Under the pieces are notes generated by a model. It was given only the letters and a program-made list of their open reading frames with translations. It was not told the origin of the DNA and searched no databases. A program made the position numbers and the translations under genes. Of a stretch of DNA of 64,000 bases, positions 36,882 to 49,341 are shown one piece after another. Every line of letters begins with the position of its first letter. The stretch's first letter is position 1. Location: contig NZ_JAUCGJ010000017.1 in assembly GCF_030378065.1 (NCBI RefSeq), forward strand, positions 1 through 64,000. The letters run 5' to 3'. Source of the stretch: Candidatus Venteria ishoeyi (lineage in GTDB: Bacteria; Pseudomonadota; Gammaproteobacteria; Beggiatoales; Beggiatoaceae).

Positions 36882-37526
36882 ATGAAAAGATTCACTTTAG
36901 CATTATGCATGGCTTTAACTGCCGGTTTAACAAGTGCCGCTTACGCAGAAGGACATGGCGCTGGCGATTCCGCAACCAAAGCAGCGGATGTGGAAGCGGG
37001 TAAGCAAAAAGCAACTACAGTATGCGTTGCCTGTCATGGCGTGGATGGCAACAGCCTTGCCGATGCCTTTCCTAAAGTAGCAGGTCAGCAAAGCACGTAC
37101 ATTGTCAATCAGCTGAAAGCCTTTAAAGCGGGTGCCCGGAAAAATCCGCTGATGGCACCACAAGCCGCAGGCTTGACTGAGCAGGACATGATTAATCTGG
37201 CGGCTTATTACAGTCAGCAAACCATGAGCCAGGGCAGCGCGGATGAAGCGGCTGCCAAACAGGGTGAGGCCTTGTATCGTGGTGGTAACGCGGATAAAAA
37301 TCTGCCTGCCTGCATGGCTTGTCATGGCCCGAGCGGTAGTGGTATTGCACCTTCTTATCCACGTTTAGGTGGTCAATATGCCAAATATCTGGAAACACGT
37401 ATTGCAGCAATTGCACAAGGCGAACACAGTGGCAATGCCAATGGCCAAATGATGCAAGACGTGGCAAAACGCATGAGCGCCAAAGAAATTAAAGCCGTTT
37501 CCGGTTATATTGCCGGTTTGCATTAG
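36882..37526 (+). CDS. Dihaem cytochrome c4
   Basis: A 214-residue periplasmic electron carrier with a signal peptide (LALCMALTAGLTSAAYA) and two cytochrome c domains, each with a haem motif: CVACH and CMACH. Each domain has a downstream Met (NPLMAPQA; GQMMQDV) as likely sixth ligand. Cytochrome c4 shuttles electrons to terminal oxidases. AGGAAGAG precedes the ATG. Repeat A begins 4 bp after its stop. Confidence 0.93.
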   Translation: MKRFTLALCMALTAGLTSAAYAEGHGAGDSATKAADVEAGKQKATTVCVACHGVDGNSLADAFPKVAGQQSTYIVNQLKAFKAGARKNPLMAPQAAGLTEQDMINLAAYYSQQTMSQGSADEAAAKQGEALYRGGNADKNLPACMACHGPSGSGIAPSYPRLGGQYAKYLETRIAAIAQGEHSGNANGQMMQDVAKRMSAKEIKAVSGYIAGLH

Positions 37527-37530
37527 TATT

Positions 37531-37705
37531 TAGGAACGAGGATTTTATAATTCCCGAAACCAAGCTGGCCTTTTTCTCCATTTTCTGCGTTATGCCTGTT
37601 TGGACTTAGGCAGTTACATAGCTTGCTATGCGCCTGTTTTCATGCCTTGAAAATGAACAAAAATCCTGCGCCTGGTTTCGGTTCTTATTTCATCCTCATT
37701 CCTTA
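37531..37705. repeat. Dispersed repeat A, copy 3 (inverted)
   Basis: Opposite orientation to the copies at 1 and 23781. Ends are TAGGAACGAGGAT and ATCCTCATTCCTTA. It is about 175 bp because the central region near 37608-37626 is replaced by about 12 extra bp (GCCTGTTTGGACTTAGGC). It starts 4 bp after the cytochrome c4 stop. Confidence 0.75.
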
Positions 37706-37786
37706 ATGTTACACAATTGGACTGTTTTTGATTTGAACCTGAAGTTTTCTTGATTTTAGTCAAAAATGATGCTTTTGTGTAACATT
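37705..37786. repeat. 82-bp segment with 12-bp inverted ends
   Basis: AATGTTACACAA (37705-37716) and TTGTGTAACATT (37775-37786) are perfect inverse copies bounding an AT-rich, non-coding segment. It directly abuts the end of repeat A copy 3. It could be another small element or a paired binding site. Confidence 0.5.
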
Positions 37787-37840
37787 ATTTAATACTTTAA
37801 TTGTATAAACTTTTTTTATAATATCTTGATTGTAAAGCAT

Positions 37841-37878
37841 AAAAAATCTGTGGGTTAATAAACTCACAGATTTTTTTT
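37841..37878. terminator. Strong bidirectional-type terminator hairpin
   Basis: AAAAAATCTGTG(GG) pairs with (CT)CACAGATTTTTT, about 14 bp with one wobble and an 8-nt loop, flanked by A and T runs. It isolates the symporter operon from upstream transcription. Confidence 0.65.
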
Positions 37879-38032
37879 ATGGATTATTACATTTTTGTTG
37901 CAAACTCAGTACACTGTGCAGGCTTGAAACGGAAGCATACTGAGTTTGGATGCATGAGCTTGTAAAAATATTCAAGTTTATTCGTGCATAACTGCTCAAG
38001 TTAAATACTAACAATCAAAGGAGCTTATTCCT

Positions 38033-38290
38033 ATGTCTGATGATACAAAACAGGCTTACTGGCGCGCAAATTTGCGCCTGCTCGCCTGGTGTTTAAGTAT
38101 CTGGTTTGTGGTGTCTTATGGTTTTGGCATCCTGCTGGTAGAACAACTTAATCAAATTAAAATCGGTGGTTTCATGCTGGGTTTCTGGTTTGCCCAGCAA
38201 GGTTCGATTTATGTTTTTCTACTGCTGATTTTTTTCTATTCCTGGCGTATGAATCAGTTGGATCGCCAATATAACGTGCATGAAGATTGA
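38033..38290 (+). CDS. DUF4212 small subunit of sodium/solute symporter
   Basis: An 85-residue protein with two membrane segments (LAWCLSIWFVVSYGFGILL; QGSIYVFLLLIFFYSW) and the DUF4212 pattern YWRANLRLL ... GGFMLGFWFAQQGS ... LDRQYNV. Such proteins are always encoded just before an ActP-like sodium/solute symporter, as here (10 bp gap), and are thought to be its accessory subunit. AAAGGAG precedes the ATG. Confidence 0.9.
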   Translation: MSDDTKQAYWRANLRLLAWCLSIWFVVSYGFGILLVEQLNQIKIGGFMLGFWFAQQGSIYVFLLLIFFYSWRMNQLDRQYNVHED

Positions 38291-38300
38291 GGAATAAAAC

Positions 38301-40100
38301 ATGGATTTAAAAACCCTAACTTATATCGTCGTTGGTGCCAGCTTTTTACTGTATATCGGTATCGCGATTTGGGCAAAAGCCCGTAGCACCAATGACTTTT
38401 ATGTCGCAGGTGGTGGTGTACATCCGGTTGCCAATGGTATGGCAACGGCTGCTGACTGGATGTCGGCAGCTTCATTTATTTCCATGGCAGGTTTAATTGC
38501 CTTTTTAGGTTATGGCGGCTCGGTTTATTTAATGGGCTGGACCGGTGGTTATGTACTGCTGGCTTTATTATTAGCACCTTATCTGCGTAAATTTGGCAAA
38601 TTCACTGTACCAGAGTTTATTGGTGAGCGTTATTATTCGCAAACTGCGCGTCTGGTTGCCGTTGTCTGTCTGATTTTTATTTCTTTCACTTATGTCGCAG
38701 GGCAAATGCGTGGTGTTGGGATTGTATTCTCCCGTTTCCTGGAAGTGGATATTATCACTGGTTTGTTAATTGGTATGGGCGTGGTCTTTTTCTACGCGGT
38801 ACTAGGTGGCATGAAAGGGATTACCTATACTCAGGTCGCGCAATATTGTGTACTGATTTTTGCTTATACCGTACCTGCGGTGTTTATCGCTATTGAAGTG
38901 ACTGGCGTTGCCCTGCCTCAAATTGCATTGGGCAGTGAGGTTGTGGATGGCTCCGGTTATTTGCTGGATAAACTTGATAAGGTGGTGACGGACTTAGGTT
39001 TTACGGCCTACACCCAAGGCACCAAGTCGACTATTGACATGTTTGCTATCACTGTCGCTTTGATGGTGGGTACTGCGGGTCTGCCGCATGTGATTGTACG
39101 CTTTTTCACCGTGCCTAAGGTACGCGATGCGCGTAAATCCGCAGGCTGGGCATTATTATTCATCACCTTGCTGTATACCACCGCACCTGCGGTTGGCGCA
39201 CTGGCGCGTTTGAACCTGATTGATACCGTGAATGGTGCCGACGGTCAAGGTACTGCTTATACTTCAATGCCAAGCTGGTTCCAAACCTGGGAAAATTCAG
39301 GTTTGATTGCCTGGTATGACCATAATGGTGACGGTAAAGTACAATATGCCGCAGGCAAGCCTATGGAAGGTAAACCTAAGTTTGAAGGTGAAACCCGTGG
39401 CACGCACGGTGAGCGCGTTGTCACCAACCCAAGCAAAGGAGAAGCAGTTAATGGTGCACCATTTGCCAATGAGTTACACGTAGATCGTGACATCATGGTA
39501 TTGGCGAATCCAGAAATTGCGAATTTGCCGATGTGGGTGATTGCATTGATTGCCGCAGGGGGTATTGCCGCAGCCTTATCCACGGCAGCCGGGCTGTTAC
39601 TGGTGATTTCTGCCAGTATTTCACATGATATTGTGAAGGGTATGCTCCGTCCGAATATCAGTGAGCGCAATGAACTCATGGTGGGACGTATTTCCGCCGC
39701 GTTTGCAATTCTGATTGCAGGGTATCTGGGGGCTAATCCACCCGCCTTCGTGGCGCAAGTGGTGGCGTTTGCCTTTGGCCTCGCCGCCTCCTCCCTGTTC
39801 CCAGTTATCCTGATGGGCATTTTCAATAAGAGAATGAACCGTGAAGGGGCTATTTCCGGTATGTTGGTGGGTCTGGTCTTTACCATAGGCTATATCCTGT
39901 ACTTCAAAGGCGTGTTTATTACGCCAATGGCAGCCAATATTCCAGAAAACTGGTTATTTGGTATCTCACCAGAAGGCATTGGTTTTATCGGTATGTTACT
40001 GAACTTCCTGGTTGCGTTTGTGGTATCTAAAGTCACCAGCGCACCACCAGAGCATATTCAGCATCTGGTTGAGGATATTCGTGTACCCAAAGCCAGTTAA
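38301..40100 (+). CDS. Sodium/solute symporter (VC_2705/ActP-like) with EF-hand-like loop
   Basis: A 599-residue SSS-family transporter, probably for acetate or another short monocarboxylate. Family features include STNDFYVAGGGVHPVANGMA, AADWMSAASFISMAG, MVGTAGLPHVIVRFFTV and AAALSTAAGLLLVISASISHD. A periplasmic-looking insert (about 325-390) contains DHNGDGKVQYAA (340-351), which matches the first part of a Ca2+-binding EF-hand loop but lacks the final Glu. It pairs with the DUF4212 gene upstream. Hairpins follow at its stop codon. Confidence 0.9.
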   Translation: MDLKTLTYIVVGASFLLYIGIAIWAKARSTNDFYVAGGGVHPVANGMATAADWMSAASFISMAGLIAFLGYGGSVYLMGWTGGYVLLALLLAPYLRKFGKFTVPEFIGERYYSQTARLVAVVCLIFISFTYVAGQMRGVGIVFSRFLEVDIITGLLIGMGVVFFYAVLGGMKGITYTQVAQYCVLIFAYTVPAVFIAIEVTGVALPQIALGSEVVDGSGYLLDKLDKVVTDLGFTAYTQGTKSTIDMFAITVALMVGTAGLPHVIVRFFTVPKVRDARKSAGWALLFITLLYTTAPAVGALARLNLIDTVNGADGQGTAYTSMPSWFQTWENSGLIAWYDHNGDGKVQYAAGKPMEGKPKFEGETRGTHGERVVTNPSKGEAVNGAPFANELHVDRDIMVLANPEIANLPMWVIALIAAGGIAAALSTAAGLLLVISASISHDIVKGMLRPNISERNELMVGRISAAFAILIAGYLGANPPAFVAQVVAFAFGLAASSLFPVILMGIFNKRMNREGAISGMLVGLVFTIGYILYFKGVFITPMAANIPENWLFGISPEGIGFIGMLLNFLVAFVVSKVTSAPPEHIQHLVEDIRVPKAS

Positions 40101-40180
40101 AAGTTAAATAAACTTTTAAGCGTAGAAAACAGTGGCTGCAAGGAGCATTCAATCTCCTTCAGCTCATTGCAGCCACTGTT
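40097..40180 (+). terminator. Two hairpins after the symporter gene
   Basis: TTAAAAGTT/AACTTTTAA (40097-40119) includes the symporter TAA and ends in a T run. A longer hairpin follows, with 14-bp arms AACAGTGGCTGCAA / TTGCAGCCACTGTT (40128-40180) and an inner AGGAG/CTCCT pair. Together they make a convincing transcription stop. Confidence 0.65.
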
Positions 40181-40227
40181 CTAAATACTGAAGCCGGCTC
40201 TGGAAACTCAATCATGAGAGCGGCTAT

Positions 40228-40280
40228 GCTACTGCGCGTTGCGCGGTTTGCCGTCTGGAAGACAGCGCTCCCGGCAAATT
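40228..40280. repeat. Short dispersed repeat, also at 61.4 kb
   Basis: GCCGTCTGGAAGACAGCGCT followed by CCCGGCAAA resembles 61408-61438 (GCCGACTGGAAGTCGGCGCT then CCCAGGGAAA). It is a palindromic intergenic motif; two copies are seen here. Confidence 0.45.
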
Positions 40281-40307
40281 AACCTTAAAATAATTGAATA
40301 AGATAGT

Positions 40308-40351
40308 TTGACAAAATAAGCCACAATCCTTATATTCGAAACATGTCGAAT
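40308..40351 (+). promoter_or_regulatory. ArsR-gene promoter and operator, predicted leaderless start
   Basis: A near-consensus promoter: TTGACA (40308-40313), 17-bp spacer, TATATT (40331-40336). The expected +1 falls at about 40343, the A of the ATG. The palindrome ATTCGAAACATGTCGAAT (40334-40351) covers the -10 and the start codon. No Shine-Dalgarno can fit, so the mRNA is predicted to be leaderless and self-repressed. Confidence 0.7.
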
Positions 40352-40684
40352 ATCAAAACTCTGGAAAATGATCTGCCCGTACTGGAGCAGTACGCAAAGA
40401 TGTTTAAGGCCTTATCAAATCCGGTACGCCTGCGTATTTTTTTGCGTTCTTTAGAAAAACACCCGCCAGGCATGACTTGTGATATTGATGTGGATACCAT
40501 GCTTTCCTGTCAGCGCAGTCTGGCCACTGAATTTGGTTTGGCACCTTCAACAATTTCGCATCATGTCAAAGAGTTAAGCAATGTTGGTTTGTTGCATGTG
40601 CGGCGTGATGGGCAACGGGTTTTAATTTGGGTGGATGCTGAGGCGATACAAAAGCTCGATTTATTTTTTGGCTCCTTATCCTGA
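40343..40684 (+). CDS. ArsR/SmtB-family transcriptional regulator
   Basis: A 113-residue winged-helix regulator: LSNPVRLRIFL, then the recognition region FGLAPSTISHHVKELSNVGLL and wing VRRDGQRVLIWVD. There are Cys at TCDID and LSCQR but no clear ELCVC-type metal site, so the inducer is unknown. It starts with the ATG inside its own predicted operator. The same operator motif lies before the RND efflux genes downstream, so I infer that it represses both itself and the pump. Confidence 0.88.
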   Translation: MSNIKTLENDLPVLEQYAKMFKALSNPVRLRIFLRSLEKHPPGMTCDIDVDTMLSCQRSLATEFGLAPSTISHHVKELSNVGLLHVRRDGQRVLIWVDAEAIQKLDLFFGSLS

Positions 40685-40694
40685 ATTTAATAAA

Positions 40695-40746
40695 CACCAT
40701 CTAAGTTGAACACCATCTAAGTTGAACACCACAGTTTTTTGTCATT
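40695..40746. repeat. Tandem 16-bp repeat
   Basis: CACCATCTAAGTTGAA occurs twice in tandem (40695-40710, 40711-40726), followed by CACCACAGTTTTTTGTCATT. The same sequence type is found once at 27787-27816. It lies between the regulator gene and the efflux operon. Confidence 0.6.
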
Positions 40747-40782
40747 ACCTTTAAAAAATTTATTTGCATTTCTCAGTACAAA

Positions 40783-40800
40783 ATTCGAAAAGTGTCGAAT
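40783..40800 (+). promoter_or_regulatory. Second copy of the ArsR-type operator
   Basis: ATTCGAAAAGTGTCGAAT matches the palindrome over the ArsR-gene start at all but two central positions. It lies 40 bp before the efflux-operon ATG, just upstream of a TATAAT at 40806-40811. Inferred binding site of the adjacent regulator. Confidence 0.7.
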
Positions 40801-40839
40801 TTTATTATAATAAAACAAATCTGTTTCAAGGAAGTCAAC

Positions 40840-42006
40840 ATGTGTCATCAAAAATATAAAATTGGTATTACTGCTGGTTTTTTATTTAATTTTTTATTCA
40901 TAACAACAACACAAGCTGAACAAGTGGTCAGAATAGAAACTGTCAAATTGCAGCAATTGCAACAGCACAAGCGTGTCACAGGTAACTTGCGCGCGCTATC
41001 GGAAGCCAGCTTAGCGGTCAGAGAATCGGGATATGTGGCAAAAGTGTTGGTTAATGAAGGCACACGCGTCAAAGCGGGGGATATGCTGGTGCAACTTGAT
41101 GAGCGGCGACTGCGCTCAGAACTGGCGCAGTTAAAAGCCGAGTTAAGTCAGGCCAAAGCCGCCGTGCGGCAGCGTCAGGCAGAATTGGCAAATGCCAAGG
41201 TGGAAATGGAGGCCAACCAATATTCAGCCAATAAAAAAGCCATTTCACAACGTGCCTTGCGTTTATCCAAAACCCAGTTTAATGTCGCGCAGGCGGCCTT
41301 GCAAGAAGCCAAAGCCGTCATCGCTGCGCGTAATGCACAGTTACAGTTATTACAAGTGCGTTTAGCGGATTTGACCCTGTATGCGCCATTTGCGGGTTTA
41401 ATCACTGAGCGTCTGGCAGAACCGGGAGAGTGGTTTAAGCAGGGGCAGAATGTCATTACTTTGGTGGCAGATGCACAATTGGAAGCCTGGCTGGATGTGC
41501 CGGAGCGTTTTGTTCATCAGTTAAACACAAACCCGCAGCAGAAAATTAATTTACAAATTAATGGCACGCACCTGGAGGCAGGCAGTCAGGTAATCTTGGG
41601 CAAGGTTGATCCCCATGCGCGAACATTTACCCTGGTTGCACATTTTGATAACACTGAGCAGCATTGGATGCCAGGTATGTCGGTATTGGCCTGGTTGCCA
41701 TTAGCTGGACAACAGGCTGTGTTGACGGTCAGTAAAAATGCCCTGGTGCAGCGTAATGGCAAATATACGGTATTTAAGGTGAGTAAAGCTGAAGAAGGTG
41801 ATACAGCCAGTGCAGTGGCGGTGGAAGTCCTGTTTTACCAGGATGGCCGCGCAGCAATTAAAGCGATGGATTTAGCCGAAAATGACCGGGTTGTGAATGA
41901 GGGTAATGAACGCCTGAATCCGGGCGCTGTGCTGGTAACGAAAATAGCAACTGATGATAAGTCCGTGAGCTTGGCTGAATTAAAAACACAACAGGAAGCT
42001 TTATGA
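40840..42006 (+). CDS. RND efflux periplasmic adaptor (membrane fusion protein)
   Basis: A 388-residue HlyD/AcrA-type adaptor with a signal peptide (GITAGFLFNFLFITTTQA) and a lipoyl-like half-motif (SLAVRESGYVAKVLVNEGTRVKAGDMLVQLD). A helical hairpin (about 90-165) with Gln/Ala heptads follows, then the second lipoyl half LTLYAPFAGLITERLAEPGEWF and beta-barrel domains. I chose ATG 40840 (AAGGAAG upstream), not the GTG inside the operator. It couples the permease to an outer-membrane channel; no TolC-like gene is adjacent. Its TGA overlaps the permease ATG. Confidence 0.92.
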   Translation: MCHQKYKIGITAGFLFNFLFITTTQAEQVVRIETVKLQQLQQHKRVTGNLRALSEASLAVRESGYVAKVLVNEGTRVKAGDMLVQLDERRLRSELAQLKAELSQAKAAVRQRQAELANAKVEMEANQYSANKKAISQRALRLSKTQFNVAQAALQEAKAVIAARNAQLQLLQVRLADLTLYAPFAGLITERLAEPGEWFKQGQNVITLVADAQLEAWLDVPERFVHQLNTNPQQKINLQINGTHLEAGSQVILGKVDPHARTFTLVAHFDNTEQHWMPGMSVLAWLPLAGQQAVLTVSKNALVQRNGKYTVFKVSKAEEGDTASAVAVEVLFYQDGRAAIKAMDLAENDRVVNEGNERLNPGAVLVTKIATDDKSVSLAELKTQQEAL

Positions 42007-45000
42007 AACTTGTTGATGCTGCCGTCAGGCAACCTATTACAGTGGTTGTCGTTGTATTGATGGCAATGATGGCGGGCGTGCTGGCTTTTACCCAGGTACC
42101 GATTCAGATGACGCCATCTGTTGATTCGGTGGTGATTTCAGTGAGTACTTTTTGGGAAAATGCCTCACCCAAAGAAATTGAGTCCGACATTATCACCGAG
42201 CAGGAGCGGGTTTTAGGTGATGTGACGGGCTTGCTGGCGTTAACCAGCATCAGTCAGGCCGGTCAGGGCCAGTTGCGCCTGGAATTTGAAAATGGCACTG
42301 ATATTCATCTGGCGATGCAACAGGTGCTGCAAAAACTGGATGAGGTGATCGCCTATCCCGAAGGGGTTTCTCAGCCCGTGGTTGAAGGCGTTGATCCTGA
42401 TTCCATTGATCACATTGCCTGGGTGGGTCTGGCGGCAACTGACCCCAATTTTGACGCATCGACTTTATATGATTTTATGGAGCGCCGCCTGCGTCCGCGT
42501 TTGGAGCGGATTAAAGGCGTGTCGAAAGTCGGCATTGTGGGTGCGCGGGAAAAAGAGCTGCAAATTCGTATTGATCCCGTGGCACTGGCGCAGCACGGTA
42601 TCACCTACACGGCATTAATGGACGCTATTCGCTTAAATAATCAGAATTTTTCTGGTGGACGCTTAAATGATGGTAAAAATGATATTCGTGTCCGTGCCGT
42701 GGGACGCTTTTCCGATATTGATGCGGTAAAACGTCTGGTGGTACAGCGTAATCAGGCCGGGCCGGTTTATCTGGGGGATCTGGCAAGCATTAAAGAAACT
42801 TATAAGGAGTTGCAGGACTGGGTGCTGGCACGCGGTATTTTAATGCCATTTTTTAATTTCCAGTTGCAATATGGCGCAAACCTGTTGGAAACCATGCACT
42901 TGATCAAAGCGGAACTGGCGACATTAAACGCCCCCGCAGGTTTGCTTGAGCAGGAAGCCCAGCGTATGGGGGTTGATGGTACATTGGAACTGGTACAAGT
43001 GTGGGATTCTTCCACCTATGTGGATCAGGCCATTGATTTAGTGCAAAACAACATCCTGATTGGTGGCTTGCTGGCAACTTTAACCTTGCTGCTGTTTTTA
43101 CGTTCCTTGCGTACCATCGGCGTGATTGCCATTGCCATTCCAATCTCAGTCATTGCTGCTTTGGTGGTATTGGTTGCTTTGGGGCGTTCGATCAATATTA
43201 TTTCTCTGGCAGGGATGGCATTTGCGGTGGGCATGGTGATCGATAATGCCATTGTGGTCATCGAAAATGTGTTTCGCCATTTGGAAATGGGTAAAACCAC
43301 CGTGCGTGCTGCGATTGAAGGTACGCATGAAGTGGCGGGCGCGGTGCTGGCTTCGACCCTGACCACTTTAATGGTCTTTTTACCCATTCTGTTTATTGAG
43401 GATTCCGCTGGACAATTATTCCGTGATATTGCGCTGGCAATTATGGCCTCAGTGGGCATTAGCTTTTTGGTCTCAATTTTAGTCATTCCCGCCACTGCCG
43501 CAGGTTTCTTACATCTGCCCAAACAAACCCGGGCGCGCTTGCAGCAAAACAAACCAAAAGCAGGTATTGCGCAATGGGTTGCCGGTATTGTACAGTTTTT
43601 CACCCGTAACTGGCTGCGGCGTTTACTGCTGACGCTGAGTTTTGCCATAATTACCTTTATTGGTATCTCATGGCTGATACCGCCGCTGGATTATTTACCT
43701 AAAGGCAACCGTAATGCGGTATTTGGCGTTATGATCCCCCCGCCCGGTTACAATCTGGAACAAATGCGCATAATTGGAAAAAGGATGGAAACCACCATTC
43801 GCCCAACCTGGGAATATACCGGTGATAAATTTGGTGCAGAACCCAGAATTCGCGGCACTGACGCGCCCGACCCCAGTGATCGTCGCCCGATGATAAGCAT
43901 TAATGGACAACAGCAGCCTGCGCCTGCTTTAGATCATTATTTCCTGGTGGCAATGGGTGGGCGTATGTTTCACGGCGCTTTACCTCATGATGCGCGCACT
44001 GCTGTGGATGCTATTGATTTGCTGAACAGTGCCGCCTCTGGTGCAAATACACCCGATGTACTGGGTTTTGCTTTCCAGTTCCCACTGTTTTTAAGTGGTG
44101 GCACCACCGGCTCGGCGATTAATATTGACTTGGTTGGTGATGACTTATCTCTGGTCAGCAAAGGTGCTGAGGCTTTGTTATTTAAGCTGTTTGAGCAGTT
44201 TGGTTTTTATGCAGTGGTGCCGGAACCGGCTAATTTTTTATTGCCATCGCCGGAATTACGCATCACTCCTGATGATGAACGCCTGCAACATATGGGCCTT
44301 AGCCGCAGTGACGTGGGTATTGCTGTGGCTGCCAATGGTGATGGTTATATCCTGCCCCGTGGTTTTGAAATTGGTGGCGAGTTAAAGGATATTAAAGTTA
44401 TCAGCCAGCCAGCCTTGGCTGATAATCCAATTGATGCCTTATTACAAGTGCCTTTGGCTACGCCTACGGGCAAAGTGGTGGATTTGGAAAATGTTGCCCA
44501 GGTGGAACGCCTGCAAGATGCTGATCAAATTAAACACGTAAACCGTCAACGCGCTGTTACCTTACAATTTACCGCCCCCGATGGCATGGCAATGGAAGAT
44601 GCGATACAGGCCATTCAAAGCATAGTGGCGGAACTGCGTGAGCAGGCGGCAATTTCGCCCTTGATTGAGGTACAGTTGGCGGGTAGCGCCGGTAAATTAA
44701 GCGACATTAAACAAGCCTTAATGGGCGATGGCAGCCTGATTGGCACAATTTCCAGCTCATTGTTTTTAGCCATGCTGGTGGTGTATCTGGTGATGGTGGT
44801 GTTATTCCAGAACTGGTTTTATCCGCTGGTCATCATGGTGACAGTGCCACTGGCAACCCTGGGCGGTTTTATCGGTTTATCCTGGGTGCATCAAATCAGC
44901 GTAGCAGAGCGTTATTTACCCGTGCAAAACATGGATGTGCTGACCATACTTGGTTTTGTTATTTTAGCGGGTGTGGTGGTCAATAATGCCATTTTAATCG

Positions 45001-45314
45001 TGCATCAAACCTTAAATTTTCTGGCAGGTAAATCCGATGTCGGGGATAAGGTTGAGCAAATGACGCCCCAACAAGCCATTATCAAGTCAGTGGAATCGCG
45101 CGTGCGCCCGATTTTGATGAGCACTCTAACCTCTGTCGGTGGTATGTTGCCTTTGGTGTTGATGCCGGGGGCGGGTAGTGAGTTGTATCGTGGCCTGGGT
45201 GCTGTGGTGGTTGGCGGTTTATTAATCGCCACATTTTTCACCTTATTTTTGGTGCCGGTGATTTTATCCATGTTGTTTGAGTTGCGGGCTAAAAAAGCAG
45301 AATACACCGCATAA
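42003..45314 (+). CDS. RND-family efflux permease (AcrB/HAE1-like)
   Basis: A 1103-residue inner-membrane proton-driven pump with two repeated halves. The N-terminal helix is RQPITVVVVVLMAMMAGVLAF, followed by the porter loop. TM4 has the proton-relay region GMVIDNAIVVIENVFRH, and the second half has GVVVNNAILIVHQTLNF and RPILMSTLTSVGGMLPL. Substrate (organic or metal) cannot be read. Slightly longer than AcrB owing to an enlarged second porter loop (about 600-700). ATGA overlap with the adaptor gene, under the ArsR-type operator. Confidence 0.93.
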   Translation: MKLVDAAVRQPITVVVVVLMAMMAGVLAFTQVPIQMTPSVDSVVISVSTFWENASPKEIESDIITEQERVLGDVTGLLALTSISQAGQGQLRLEFENGTDIHLAMQQVLQKLDEVIAYPEGVSQPVVEGVDPDSIDHIAWVGLAATDPNFDASTLYDFMERRLRPRLERIKGVSKVGIVGAREKELQIRIDPVALAQHGITYTALMDAIRLNNQNFSGGRLNDGKNDIRVRAVGRFSDIDAVKRLVVQRNQAGPVYLGDLASIKETYKELQDWVLARGILMPFFNFQLQYGANLLETMHLIKAELATLNAPAGLLEQEAQRMGVDGTLELVQVWDSSTYVDQAIDLVQNNILIGGLLATLTLLLFLRSLRTIGVIAIAIPISVIAALVVLVALGRSINIISLAGMAFAVGMVIDNAIVVIENVFRHLEMGKTTVRAAIEGTHEVAGAVLASTLTTLMVFLPILFIEDSAGQLFRDIALAIMASVGISFLVSILVIPATAAGFLHLPKQTRARLQQNKPKAGIAQWVAGIVQFFTRNWLRRLLLTLSFAIITFIGISWLIPPLDYLPKGNRNAVFGVMIPPPGYNLEQMRIIGKRMETTIRPTWEYTGDKFGAEPRIRGTDAPDPSDRRPMISINGQQQPAPALDHYFLVAMGGRMFHGALPHDARTAVDAIDLLNSAASGANTPDVLGFAFQFPLFLSGGTTGSAINIDLVGDDLSLVSKGAEALLFKLFEQFGFYAVVPEPANFLLPSPELRITPDDERLQHMGLSRSDVGIAVAANGDGYILPRGFEIGGELKDIKVISQPALADNPIDALLQVPLATPTGKVVDLENVAQVERLQDADQIKHVNRQRAVTLQFTAPDGMAMEDAIQAIQSIVAELREQAAISPLIEVQLAGSAGKLSDIKQALMGDGSLIGTISSSLFLAMLVVYLVMVVLFQNWFYPLVIMVTVPLATLGGFIGLSWVHQISVAERYLPVQNMDVLTILGFVILAGVVVNNAILIVHQTLNFLAGKSDVGDKVEQMTPQQAIIKSVESRVRPILMSTLTSVGGMLPLVLMPGAGSELYRGLGAVVVGGLLIATFFTLFLVPVILSMLFELRAKKAEYTA

Positions 45315-46726: not shown

Positions 46727-47452
46727 ATGAACCCAAAAATCCTGTTATTGGCTTTAGTCATGTGGTTGTCTGGCTGTGTTGAGGAGAATCTCAAAGACAG
46801 CACGGGCGCTGCTGCTGCAAGTCCCCACAAAACTCAGACACAGATTGAAGCGCAAGTGACTGCTTTGCTGGCCCAGGCTTATATCGATCCGCTGACCGAT
46901 TATATTTATCAGTACCGCCATGATCCCCAATATCATCAAGCGGTGCAGACTTTAATCGAGACGCGGGAGGTGCGCTGTCAAGTAATTGCGCAGCGTTATC
47001 AAAAACGTGAAAAAACCCTGCAAATGCTGGCACGTCTGCAAAAGCATTATCAATACTCCTGTCCACAACAGGTCACGGATTTTGCCCATCAGGTTGCCAG
47101 CAGTGCTTTGGCTAAGGTGCCTGCCAAGCCTCAAACACAATCTGTGGCGCAACAAAAAGATTGCCAGCAATATTATGAGCAGGGCGATTATGCCAATGCT
47201 TTAAAAGTGTGCGCAGCCCTGGCTAAACAAGGCGATGCCAGGGCGCAACTGAAGCTGGGGATTTTATACGCTGATGGTCGCGGCGGCATTCCTAAAGACT
47301 TGATTGAAGCCTATGTCTGGTTATCATTGGCAATGCAGGGTGGTATCCAACAGGCGGCGGTATTTCGCCGTAGCATTGCGCACAGCCTCAGTACCGAGCA
47401 ACTGTTAAAAGCCAATGATCGCGTTGTGCTTATCAGTAAGCATTTCAGATGA
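46727..47452 (+). CDS. Sel1-repeat lipoprotein
   Basis: A 241-residue protein with a lipoprotein signal (LLLALVMWLSGC) and a helical middle. C-terminal Sel1/TPR-type repeats occupy about 145-225 (YYEQGDYANALKVCAALAKQ, DARAQLKLGILYADGRGG, LIEAYVWLSLAMQGG). Sel1 repeats mediate protein contacts. Its stop overlaps the start of the caspase-like gene (ATGA), so the two are co-translated and probably act together in the periplasm or at the envelope. No precise function is recognised. Confidence 0.8.
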   Translation: MNPKILLLALVMWLSGCVEENLKDSTGAAAASPHKTQTQIEAQVTALLAQAYIDPLTDYIYQYRHDPQYHQAVQTLIETREVRCQVIAQRYQKREKTLQMLARLQKHYQYSCPQQVTDFAHQVASSALAKVPAKPQTQSVAQQKDCQQYYEQGDYANALKVCAALAKQGDARAQLKLGILYADGRGGIPKDLIEAYVWLSLAMQGGIQQAAVFRRSIAHSLSTEQLLKANDRVVLISKHFR

Positions 47453-49341
47453 ATATCCAACATATTTTTGGTTTTTGTTGCTGGCTGCTGTGTGGTATTT
47501 TATCCGCACAGGCAGACATGCCCAGCACCTCGCCAGAGGTGCTGGGCAAAGTGGCGCTGGTCATTGGTAATGCCGATTATCCTTATGCGGCCTTAAATAA
47601 TGCGCGTAATGACGCCGAGGATATTGCAGCCAAACTGCAAATGCTGGGCTTTGATGTCATCTTAAAAACTGACAGTAATCGCCATGACATGTTAAAAGCT
47701 GTGCGCCAGTTTGGTGAAAAGCTGCAACAGCAAAGTGCCGGGGTATTTTATTATTCAGGCCATGCGCTGCAATTTCATGGGCAAAATTATTTGTTAGCGG
47801 CTAAAACAGCGATGCCTACAGCCGAGCAACTGGATCAGCAAAGCTTATCCATGGCGCGCATTCTTGACGAAATGAGTCTGGCGGAAAATACCACGAATAT
47901 CCTGATTATTGATGCCTGTCGTGACAACCCTTTTGTCACCAGCGCAAAAAATCCGGTCAAAGGTCTGGCAAAAATGGCAGCGCCACCCGGCACCTTAATT
48001 GCCTATGCCACCACGCCCGGTAGCGTGGCTGAAGATGGTAAGCAACGCAACAGCCCCTATACCCGCCATTTGTTAAGCTGGTTAGGCACTGCAAATTTAA
48101 CCGTGGGACAGATGTTTAACCGGGTGCGCGATGGCGTGATTTTGGAAACCAACAAGCGCCAGGTTCCTTCTGAGGTCAGTTATTTGCGTAAGGATTTTTA
48201 CTTTGCCGGTAAACGAAATAAAAAACAGTTAGCCGCGCAGGAAACAGAGCGTCTGCTGCAACAACTACGCGATGCGGAAGCAAAAAAACGTCAGCAAGAA
48301 AAACAACAAAAATACCAGCAACAATTACAAACCTGCTTGCAGCATGAACAGGCAATGCGCTTATTAGATGATAAGGGGCAGGGTGCGGCCTTGCCATGTT
48401 ACCAGACGATTTTGCAGCAATTTCCACAAGACAGCAAAGCGTTGGAACGCCTTCACTCTCTGGCGTTGCGTTATCTGACCTGGACTGAAGCCGCACTGCG
48501 TCACACCCAGTGGCAACGTGCAGAAACCTATTTACAGGGCTTACAGAAAATCAATCCAAAACATGTAGAACTGCCCGTTTTACAAGCACAATTAAAAAGT
48601 GGACAGGCGCAACAGGCAGAAACGCAACAAATTGAAGCCTTAAGCATTAAGCTGTTAGGCGTAGATGCTAATACGCATAAGCACGTACCTGTCGCCTATT
48701 GGGAAACGGATAAAGAAAGTTTATTATTACAACCCGGTCAGTCGTTTATTTATTATCTACCGCTACCAAGACATAACTTATTATATTCAGCCATGATTGA
48801 AGTGGATAATTTGCCCACTTGGTTAAAGTTTGAGGCAAAACATGCTTATCTTTATGGGCAGGTGCCTGATGAAAAGCAGCAAATGCCTATAGAGTTGCGT
48901 TTTAGCGCGCACCTTGAGCAGCAGGTTTCAGCGCCTTTATTTATAGCGATTAAAATTGATGGCAACGCTTCACAAAAACGGATTAAGCTGAAAAAAAACA
49001 AGCTTACAGAACCGTTAAACCCCAATGTATTTAGTCATAATCCCGATTTATTTCAAGAAATTGTCGTGCGTATTTTTACACAATTGGGTTATTGGGTTGT
49101 GCTAACAGAAGATACAAAAAATACTGAAGGTTATTATCCCGTGACCAGTACTGAAACTGAAAATATATTTTATGTTTCCCGTCCGCTGTTGATGCCACAG
49201 CAAAACGCTGATGAGTCACCACTTTATCTGCATTTATCGCGGCAGAACCCCCAACATAAGGTTTTAATGTTTCGTTTTAATCAACAACACCAGCAATTGC
49301 AGCAGGCGGGTTGGCTGGCATGGATTAAAAATCCTTATTAA
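47449..49341 (+). CDS. Exported caspase-like (C14) protease with C-terminal domains
   Basis: A 630-residue protein with a signal peptide (to about residue 22). The caspase-fold domain (about 33-250) begins VALVIGNADYPYAALNNARND. The catalytic dyad is His105 in FYYSGHALQ and Cys157 in LIIDACRDNP, both intact, so it should be an active Arg/Lys-type orthocaspase. A Gln/Lys-rich coiled-coil and TPR-like stretch (about 260-390) follows. Next is a beta domain with ATTRIBUTES of cadherin/Ig-like folds (about 420-520), and then a C-terminal region I do not recognise. Overlaps the Sel1 lipoprotein gene. Confidence 0.88.
   Translation: MNIQHIFGFCCWLLCGILSAQADMPSTSPEVLGKVALVIGNADYPYAALNNARNDAEDIAAKLQMLGFDVILKTDSNRHDMLKAVRQFGEKLQQQSAGVFYYSGHALQFHGQNYLLAAKTAMPTAEQLDQQSLSMARILDEMSLAENTTNILIIDACRDNPFVTSAKNPVKGLAKMAAPPGTLIAYATTPGSVAEDGKQRNSPYTRHLLSWLGTANLTVGQMFNRVRDGVILETNKRQVPSEVSYLRKDFYFAGKRNKKQLAAQETERLLQQLRDAEAKKRQQEKQQKYQQQLQTCLQHEQAMRLLDDKGQGAALPCYQTILQQFPQDSKALERLHSLALRYLTWTEAALRHTQWQRAETYLQGLQKINPKHVELPVLQAQLKSGQAQQAETQQIEALSIKLLGVDANTHKHVPVAYWETDKESLLLQPGQSFIYYLPLPRHNLLYSAMIEVDNLPTWLKFEAKHAYLYGQVPDEKQQMPIELRFSAHLEQQVSAPLFIAIKIDGNASQKRIKLKKNKLTEPLNPNVFSHNPDLFQEIVVRIFTQLGYWVVLTEDTKNTEGYYPVTSTETENIFYVSRPLLMPQQNADESPLYLHLSRQNPQHKVLMFRFNQQHQQLQQAGWLAWIKNPY

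Follow-up and report, generated by a model that had tools for sequence, protein, structure and literature searches.

Introduction

Leaderless autorepressors are already known as a kind: the genes of lambda cI and Tn1721 tetR are the classic leaderless repressor genes (as cited in PMC3017554), and AcuR of Rhodobacter sphaeroides is an autorepressor whose leaderless transcript was mapped by 5' RACE and whose operator overlaps its promoter; its gene has no Shine-Dalgarno (SD) sequence, and several lineages keep the operon layout (PMC3017554). Within the ArsR family, arsR of Cupriavidus metallidurans (Rmet_0333) has a measured transcription start 0 bp upstream and is listed as leaderless (PMC9045368, PMC7563307). 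Leaderless genes were detected in just 15 of 239 gammaproteobacterial genomes in one survey (PMC3160421). For arsRM operons, a methylarsenite-inducible example from Noviherbaspirillum denitrificans HC18 is cited in PMC12124457, and according to the biosensor description in that source the arsRM promoter piece extended over the first 48 bp of arsR, an extent compatible with an operator lying over the start of the gene.

The window analyzed here is the whole 64,000-nucleotide stretch at positions 1 to 64,000 of contig NZ_JAUCGJ010000017.1 from Candidatus Venteria ishoeyi. It contains an ArsR-family regulator gene followed by the genes of an RND pump, and we consider it highly likely that this regulator is a member of an arsRM-type leaderless autorepressor branch that has been rewired to the pump, with a probable change of inducer.

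The regulator gene and its predicted promoter and operator

The regulator is an ArsR/SmtB-family winged-helix protein. It scores above the Pfam cut-offs for HTH_20 and HTH_5 and just under that of NF033788 (51 bits, cut-off 55), and its best PDB matches are ArsR structures. The features at its start are these:

40308–40313, + strand: −35 box TTGACA of promoter P1, kept as TTGAC in orthologues
40331–40336, + strand: −10 box TATATT of P1, with predicted +1 at 40343; TATAAT-like at the same place in orthologues
40334–40351 (arms to 40332–40353), + strand: predicted operator O1, a palindrome over the −10, the predicted +1 and the start codon
40343–40684, + strand: ArsR-family repressor gene, 113 aa, predicted leaderless

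The two boxes of P1 are separated by a 17-bp spacer, and seven bases on from the last base of the −10 lies 40343, the A of the ATG at 40343–40345. An earlier note on this DNA had claimed that TTGACA-17-TATATT sets the transcription start on that A, and its letters and coordinates are correct. It was equally right that no SD sequence precedes this ATG. Its further claim that the palindrome covers both the −10 and the start codon holds for the start codon and needs qualifying for the −10: the 18-bp core of O1, ATTCGAAACATGTCGAAT, shares just the last three bases of the box, and it is the 8-bp arms ATATTCGA/TCGAATAT, spanning 40332–40353, that take in nearly all of it. The ATG at 40343 is the earliest possible ATG, GTG or TTG start of the 113-aa ORF, none other lying in frame 5' of it before a stop.

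A 242-bp gap separates the regulator gene from a symporter gene upstream. Within this gap, an inverted repeat at 40128–40180 has 19-nt arms (95% complementary) and a 15-nt loop with no T run after it, and may possibly have a terminator-like or processing role limiting read-through into arsR. An Rfam search of 37400–42100 returned zero matches, and thus no known riboswitch is present in that region.

Start geometry in the orthologues

Searching 369 genomes of the class with the protein yielded 26 further orthologues (36–48% identity), found by protein similarity and not by DNA. With the window gene and its relative L001 from Candidatus Albibeggiatoa they make up a compared set of 28, two of which are pump-linked. 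The gene begins ATGTCGAA within the operator in 28/28, TTCGA begins eight bases before the ATG in 27/28, and TTGAC lies 35–37 bp before it in 23/28. A pyrimidine stands directly before the ATG in 26 of the 28, a pyrimidine and then A at +1 being a usual transcription start pair. The resulting consensus is TTGACA, 17 bp, TATAAT and then TCGAAAY directly followed by ATGTCGAAyTATA, with the axis of the palindrome immediately before the A of the ATG, and the window sequence conforms to the pattern that defines the branch, TTCGAwAnnTGTCGAA with the ATG at its centre. The same layout, with the start at ATGTCGAA in the operator, is present in 11 further orthologues from outside the class; plasmid homologues are distant, with about 41% identity at most among the matches listed. 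The more distant, lower-scoring ArsR matches that we used as a contrast (L002–L005, L010–L012, L083–L087) carry no fused element.

Three of these distant ArsR genes, L084, L086 and L087, have related half-sites (TGTCGAAATAT or ATCGAAATAT) upstream of the start, and in L084 and L086 an SD-like GGAG or AGGAG accompanies them, which suggests that another ArsR branch has a similar operator in leadered form. Separately, many orthologues, e.g., L013, L022 and L025, have a TTG at −36 that reads in frame with arsR and is part of the −35 TTGACA, and gene finders may therefore wrongly extend ArsR through its own promoter.

The background frequency of leaderless geometry was judged from window and neighbour genes. 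A promoter scoring at least 9/12 at leaderless spacing was present in 27/28 orthologues, against 0/107 neighbour genes and 0/41 window genes (Fisher test of orthologues against neighbours, 1.5e-27); the controls are the first ATGs of long ORFs, some of which will be wrong starts, although this is unlikely to account for 0/148. The conserved −10 lies partly inside the palindrome and so cannot be counted separately from the operator, whereas the −35 can. AGGA, GGAG or GAGG occurs upstream of none of the 28 orthologues as compared with 42% of neighbours (p 2.6e-6). Finally, the Ser2 codon is TCG in 28/28, against 17% of the other Ser codons in the same genes, which points to constraint on the DNA itself; since the orthologues share descent, the computed value of 5e-22 for this bias cannot be taken as a true probability, clear though the contrast is. 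The earlier proposal of a leaderless transcript thus gains support from sequence comparison, every orthologue examined having the same start geometry and the unusual codon constraint.

We weighed two other ways in which this gene might be expressed. In the first, the regulator mRNA would have a normal leader, coming from an upstream promoter or from read-through, and the palindrome would be an operator merely covering the start codon. Operators can sit inside a leader, the 5' end here is a predicted one, and the gap to the symporter gene is 242 bp long. We nevertheless regard such a leader as unlikely, given that P1 is the sole + strand sigma-70-like site in a promoter scan from 40080 to the pump start, that an SD is found in 0/28 orthologues and that leaderless spacing is found in 27/28. 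Moreover, a read-through mRNA would hide its AUG in the folded operator (mean −7.6 kcal/mol, against −1.4 for a leaderless 5' end); this accords with a leaderless message, and any read-through would tend to be silenced. In the second, translation would begin at Met20 (MFKALSNP) after a weak GGAG, and not at the first in-frame ATG. Met20 precedes the core ArsR fold and the GGAG lies 12 nt before it, but several orthologues have no Met there, and three have no alternative ATG, GTG or TTG either upstream or within the first 30 codons (codons 2–30). On these two grounds the Met20 start was rejected as extremely improbable; silent substitutions between the two genera upstream of Met20 also speak against it.

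A predicted second operator before the RND pump

Downstream of the regulator gene lie the following features:

40783–40800, + strand: predicted pump-side operator O2, ATTCGAAAAGTGTCGAAT, identical in Albibeggiatoa
40784–40811, + strand: putative pump promoter P2, with TTCGAA as a weak −35 inside O2, a 16-bp spacer and TATAAT at 40806–40811
40828–40834, + strand: SD sequence AAGGAAG of the adaptor gene
40840–42006, + strand: RND periplasmic adaptor (membrane fusion protein), 388 aa from the ATG at 40840 (TIGR01730 above cut-off, HlyD_D23/HlyD_3)
42003–45314, + strand: RND permease (ACR_tran), 1103 aa (PF00873, 597 bits; 83% identical orthologue in the Albibeggiatoa locus, G001)

The adaptor and ACR_tran permease genes overlap by 4 bp and form an RND efflux system in one operon, from which an outer-membrane factor gene is absent. 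Beyond the pump, an ORF at 47449–49341 resembles, as judged by eye from its sequence, a caspase-like (metacaspase-type) protein.

The palindrome recurs before the adaptor gene, as the earlier note had observed, and a genome scan for the motif, the check proposed there, found ATTCGAAAnnTGTCGAAT only twice in the 4.4-Mb genome, over the regulator start and before the RND adaptor. ATTCGA-N6-TCGAAT is confined to the same two sites genome-wide, O1 and O2, which lie 449 bp apart and flank the regulator. Allowing two mismatches adds one poor site in the whole genome; allowing up to three gives no match in the window besides O1 and O2, a count reached in 0/100 shuffles.

These sites also bear on whether the conserved start could reflect the protein N terminus (MSN) only, with the second palindrome a chance occurrence or the site of another regulator. 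The right arm of O1 is coding, and its conservation could be partly protein-level. The left arm, however, is non-coding yet conserved, Ser2 is uniformly TCG, O2 lies entirely outside coding sequence and matches at 18/18 positions between genera, and a genome of this size has just two such sites, so close together. We therefore give this explanation hardly any credence and continue to read O1 and O2 as two operators of one repressor.

P2 is weak by consensus and falls under the threshold of the sigma-70 promoter scan; in Albibeggiatoa, TACAAT stands at the same distance from O2 as TATAAT does in the window. Transcription from P2 would start near 40818, followed by the SD AAGGAAG and the ATG at 40840; a separate pump promoter that overlaps O2 and yields a leadered mRNA with an SD is probable. 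There, O2 would cover the −35 and the spacer of P2, whereas O1 would cover the −10 and +1 of P1. No terminator-like + strand site was found between the regulator and pump genes, and as a result transcripts running on from P1 may contribute to pump expression. An exact tandem duplication of the 16-mer AACACCATCTAAGTTG, absent elsewhere in the window, occupies 40693–40724, just after arsR and before O2.

The sister locus and the neighbouring genes

The regulator has one close relative, in Candidatus Albibeggiatoa (L001, 76% identity, apparently the same contig as G001:C185), and only 2/43 family genomes carry the orthologue. Both 18-bp operator sites are present letter for letter in Albibeggiatoa (18/18); around O2, identity is 36% over the left 25 bp and 46% over the right 39 bp, against 100% in the site. 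TTGAC starts 36 bp before the ATG there and 35 bp before it in the window. These identical sites and their near-identical spacing lend support to the earlier suggestion that the regulator would repress both itself and the pump through a shared operator.

The order of the Albibeggiatoa locus on one strand is arsR, O2, MarR, GNAT, adaptor, two LysE-type genes, a small gene, HNH and permease (L001 6349–11460 / L092); unlike in the window, MarR, GNAT, the two LysE-type genes, the small gene and HNH thus lie between O2 and the permease. Comparison of the two orders gives regulator, O2, adaptor and permease as the conserved unit, and the MarR and GNAT genes between O2 and the adaptor would make pump control in Albibeggiatoa less direct.

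In all 20 of the orthologous loci fetched with flanks, the next gene is arsenite methyltransferase-like by sequence; two of these 20 were run against NCBIfam, and both exceed the ArsM cut-off. In the window an RND adaptor follows the regulator in place of arsM, and neither this genome nor that of Albibeggiatoa has an ArsM above cut-off, as compared with 11/43 family genomes that have one. Of the 26 other orthologue genomes, 22 contain a single TTCGAWANNTGTCGAA, located at arsR, and the remaining four have a variant site; two copies are present only in the pump-linked G000 and G001. The second operator is therefore a property of the pump-linked lineage, and this difference between one motif per arsM-linked genome and two here further favours a shared pump operator. 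In the tree, the two pump-linked proteins form a long-stemmed group (100/100) beside one arsM-linked protein (94/76), a picture compatible with function having changed quickly, though not strong evidence of it. Resolution in this tree is poor, and an origin of the two proteins inside the arsM-linked branch is therefore likely, not proved.

Loss of the presumed arsenic-site cysteines

The arsM-linked proteins carry CC-x5-C plus a wing Cys, with C33, C34 and C88 (L030 numbering) in 26/26. At the presumed arsenic-site positions the window regulator has K39, H40, C46 and I95, and Albibeggiatoa has K, H, V and I. The window regulator thus has no CC-x5-C plus wing Cys, and C56 is the only cysteine that it shares with the Albibeggiatoa regulator. 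With the CC pair and the wing Cys lost, we class it as a diverged relative of the branch and not among its arsenic-sensing members. The recognition region APST(L/I)SHH is retained, as is the operator, and the protein has probably kept its DNA reading and lost As(III) sensing. Since the arsM target and the cysteines that would be expected to bind As(III) are both gone, the inducer is probably not As(III) and may be a substrate of the pump, it being the cysteine loss that suggests the change. Against such a change, one published single-Cys ArsR still bound As(III) in vitro (PMC13236881).

The regulator might still respond to As(III) or methylarsenite, sensing it by way of C46/C56 or other residues, and the pump might export an arsenical or another soft metal. 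It is an ArsR-family protein, its relatives adjoin arsM, and C46 and C56 remain in the window protein. We hold this to be a less probable, though appreciable, possibility, as C46 is replaced by Val in Albibeggiatoa, neither protein has the CC pair or the wing Cys, and the genome has no ArsM above cut-off. The permease, moreover, fits multidrug-type RND models better than the heavy-metal CusA/CzcA model, all of these scores being below cut-off.

Proposed mechanism and significance

The reading that we prefer, a rewired member of the leaderless branch with a probably changed inducer, would work as follows. The regulator would belong to a leaderless, autorepressing ArsR branch otherwise found before arsM. 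RNA polymerase would use TTGACA/TATATT and start either at the A of the ATG or at the preceding base; a repressor dimer would bind the palindrome centred on the start, covering the −10, +1 and first codons, and so block its own transcription. The regulator mRNA, having no ribosome-binding site, would be translated from the AUG at its 5' end, probably to a modest extent. Through O2, lying over the −35 and spacer of the separate leadered pump promoter, the same repressor would hold down the RND adaptor and permease, and binding of the inducer would release both operators. Counting against this explanation are the different placements of O1 and O2 relative to P1 and P2 and the weakness of P2.

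On balance, we also lean towards a wider interpretation, in which a phylum-wide arsR branch with operator, transcription start and start codon fused within 16–28 bp has kept leaderless translation across classes, and one Beggiatoa-related lineage recruited this unit to an RND pump, changed its inducer through loss of the arsenic-binding cysteines, and gained a second operator at the new target. With the three elements fused in this way, operator binding would dictate the N terminus, MSN/MSK.

The branch keeps its leaderless geometry, with no SD in any of the 28, in nearly every orthologue examined and in more than one class, and thus provides a clean case for testing why repressor genes are often leaderless. 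The pump-linked pair would represent a natural regulatory rewiring, in which the operator and the DNA-reading helix were kept while the ligand site and the target were replaced. In practical terms, DNA searches with the motif suffice to locate such operons, and start-codon calls can be corrected with it.

Comparison with known systems

Among open-access papers, we found none giving this operator or noting leaderless arsRM; the fused operator-start element of the arsM-linked regulators appears to be undescribed, as does its redeployment at an RND pump by a regulator that has lost the arsenic site. Lambda cI and Tn1721 tetR are similar in being leaderless repressors, whereas their proteins and operators are unrelated. 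The C. metallidurans gene is likewise a leaderless gene of the ArsR family, likened here by family and start position alone, but its product regulates arsRIC2BC1HP. AcuR resembles the window regulator, whose 5' end is a predicted one, as a leaderless autorepressor with its operator on the promoter, no SD and a layout kept across lineages; it differs in being a TetR-family protein with acrylate as inducer and an unrelated operator, TAATAGAC-n6-GTCTATTA. The arsRM operons have orthologous regulators of the same protein family, with the same operator and start geometry, directly before the ArsM gene, the HC18 ArsR being matched by description only. In contrast to these operons, the window locus has no arsM, its regulator has neither the CC pair nor the wing Cys, and a second operator stands before an RND pump.
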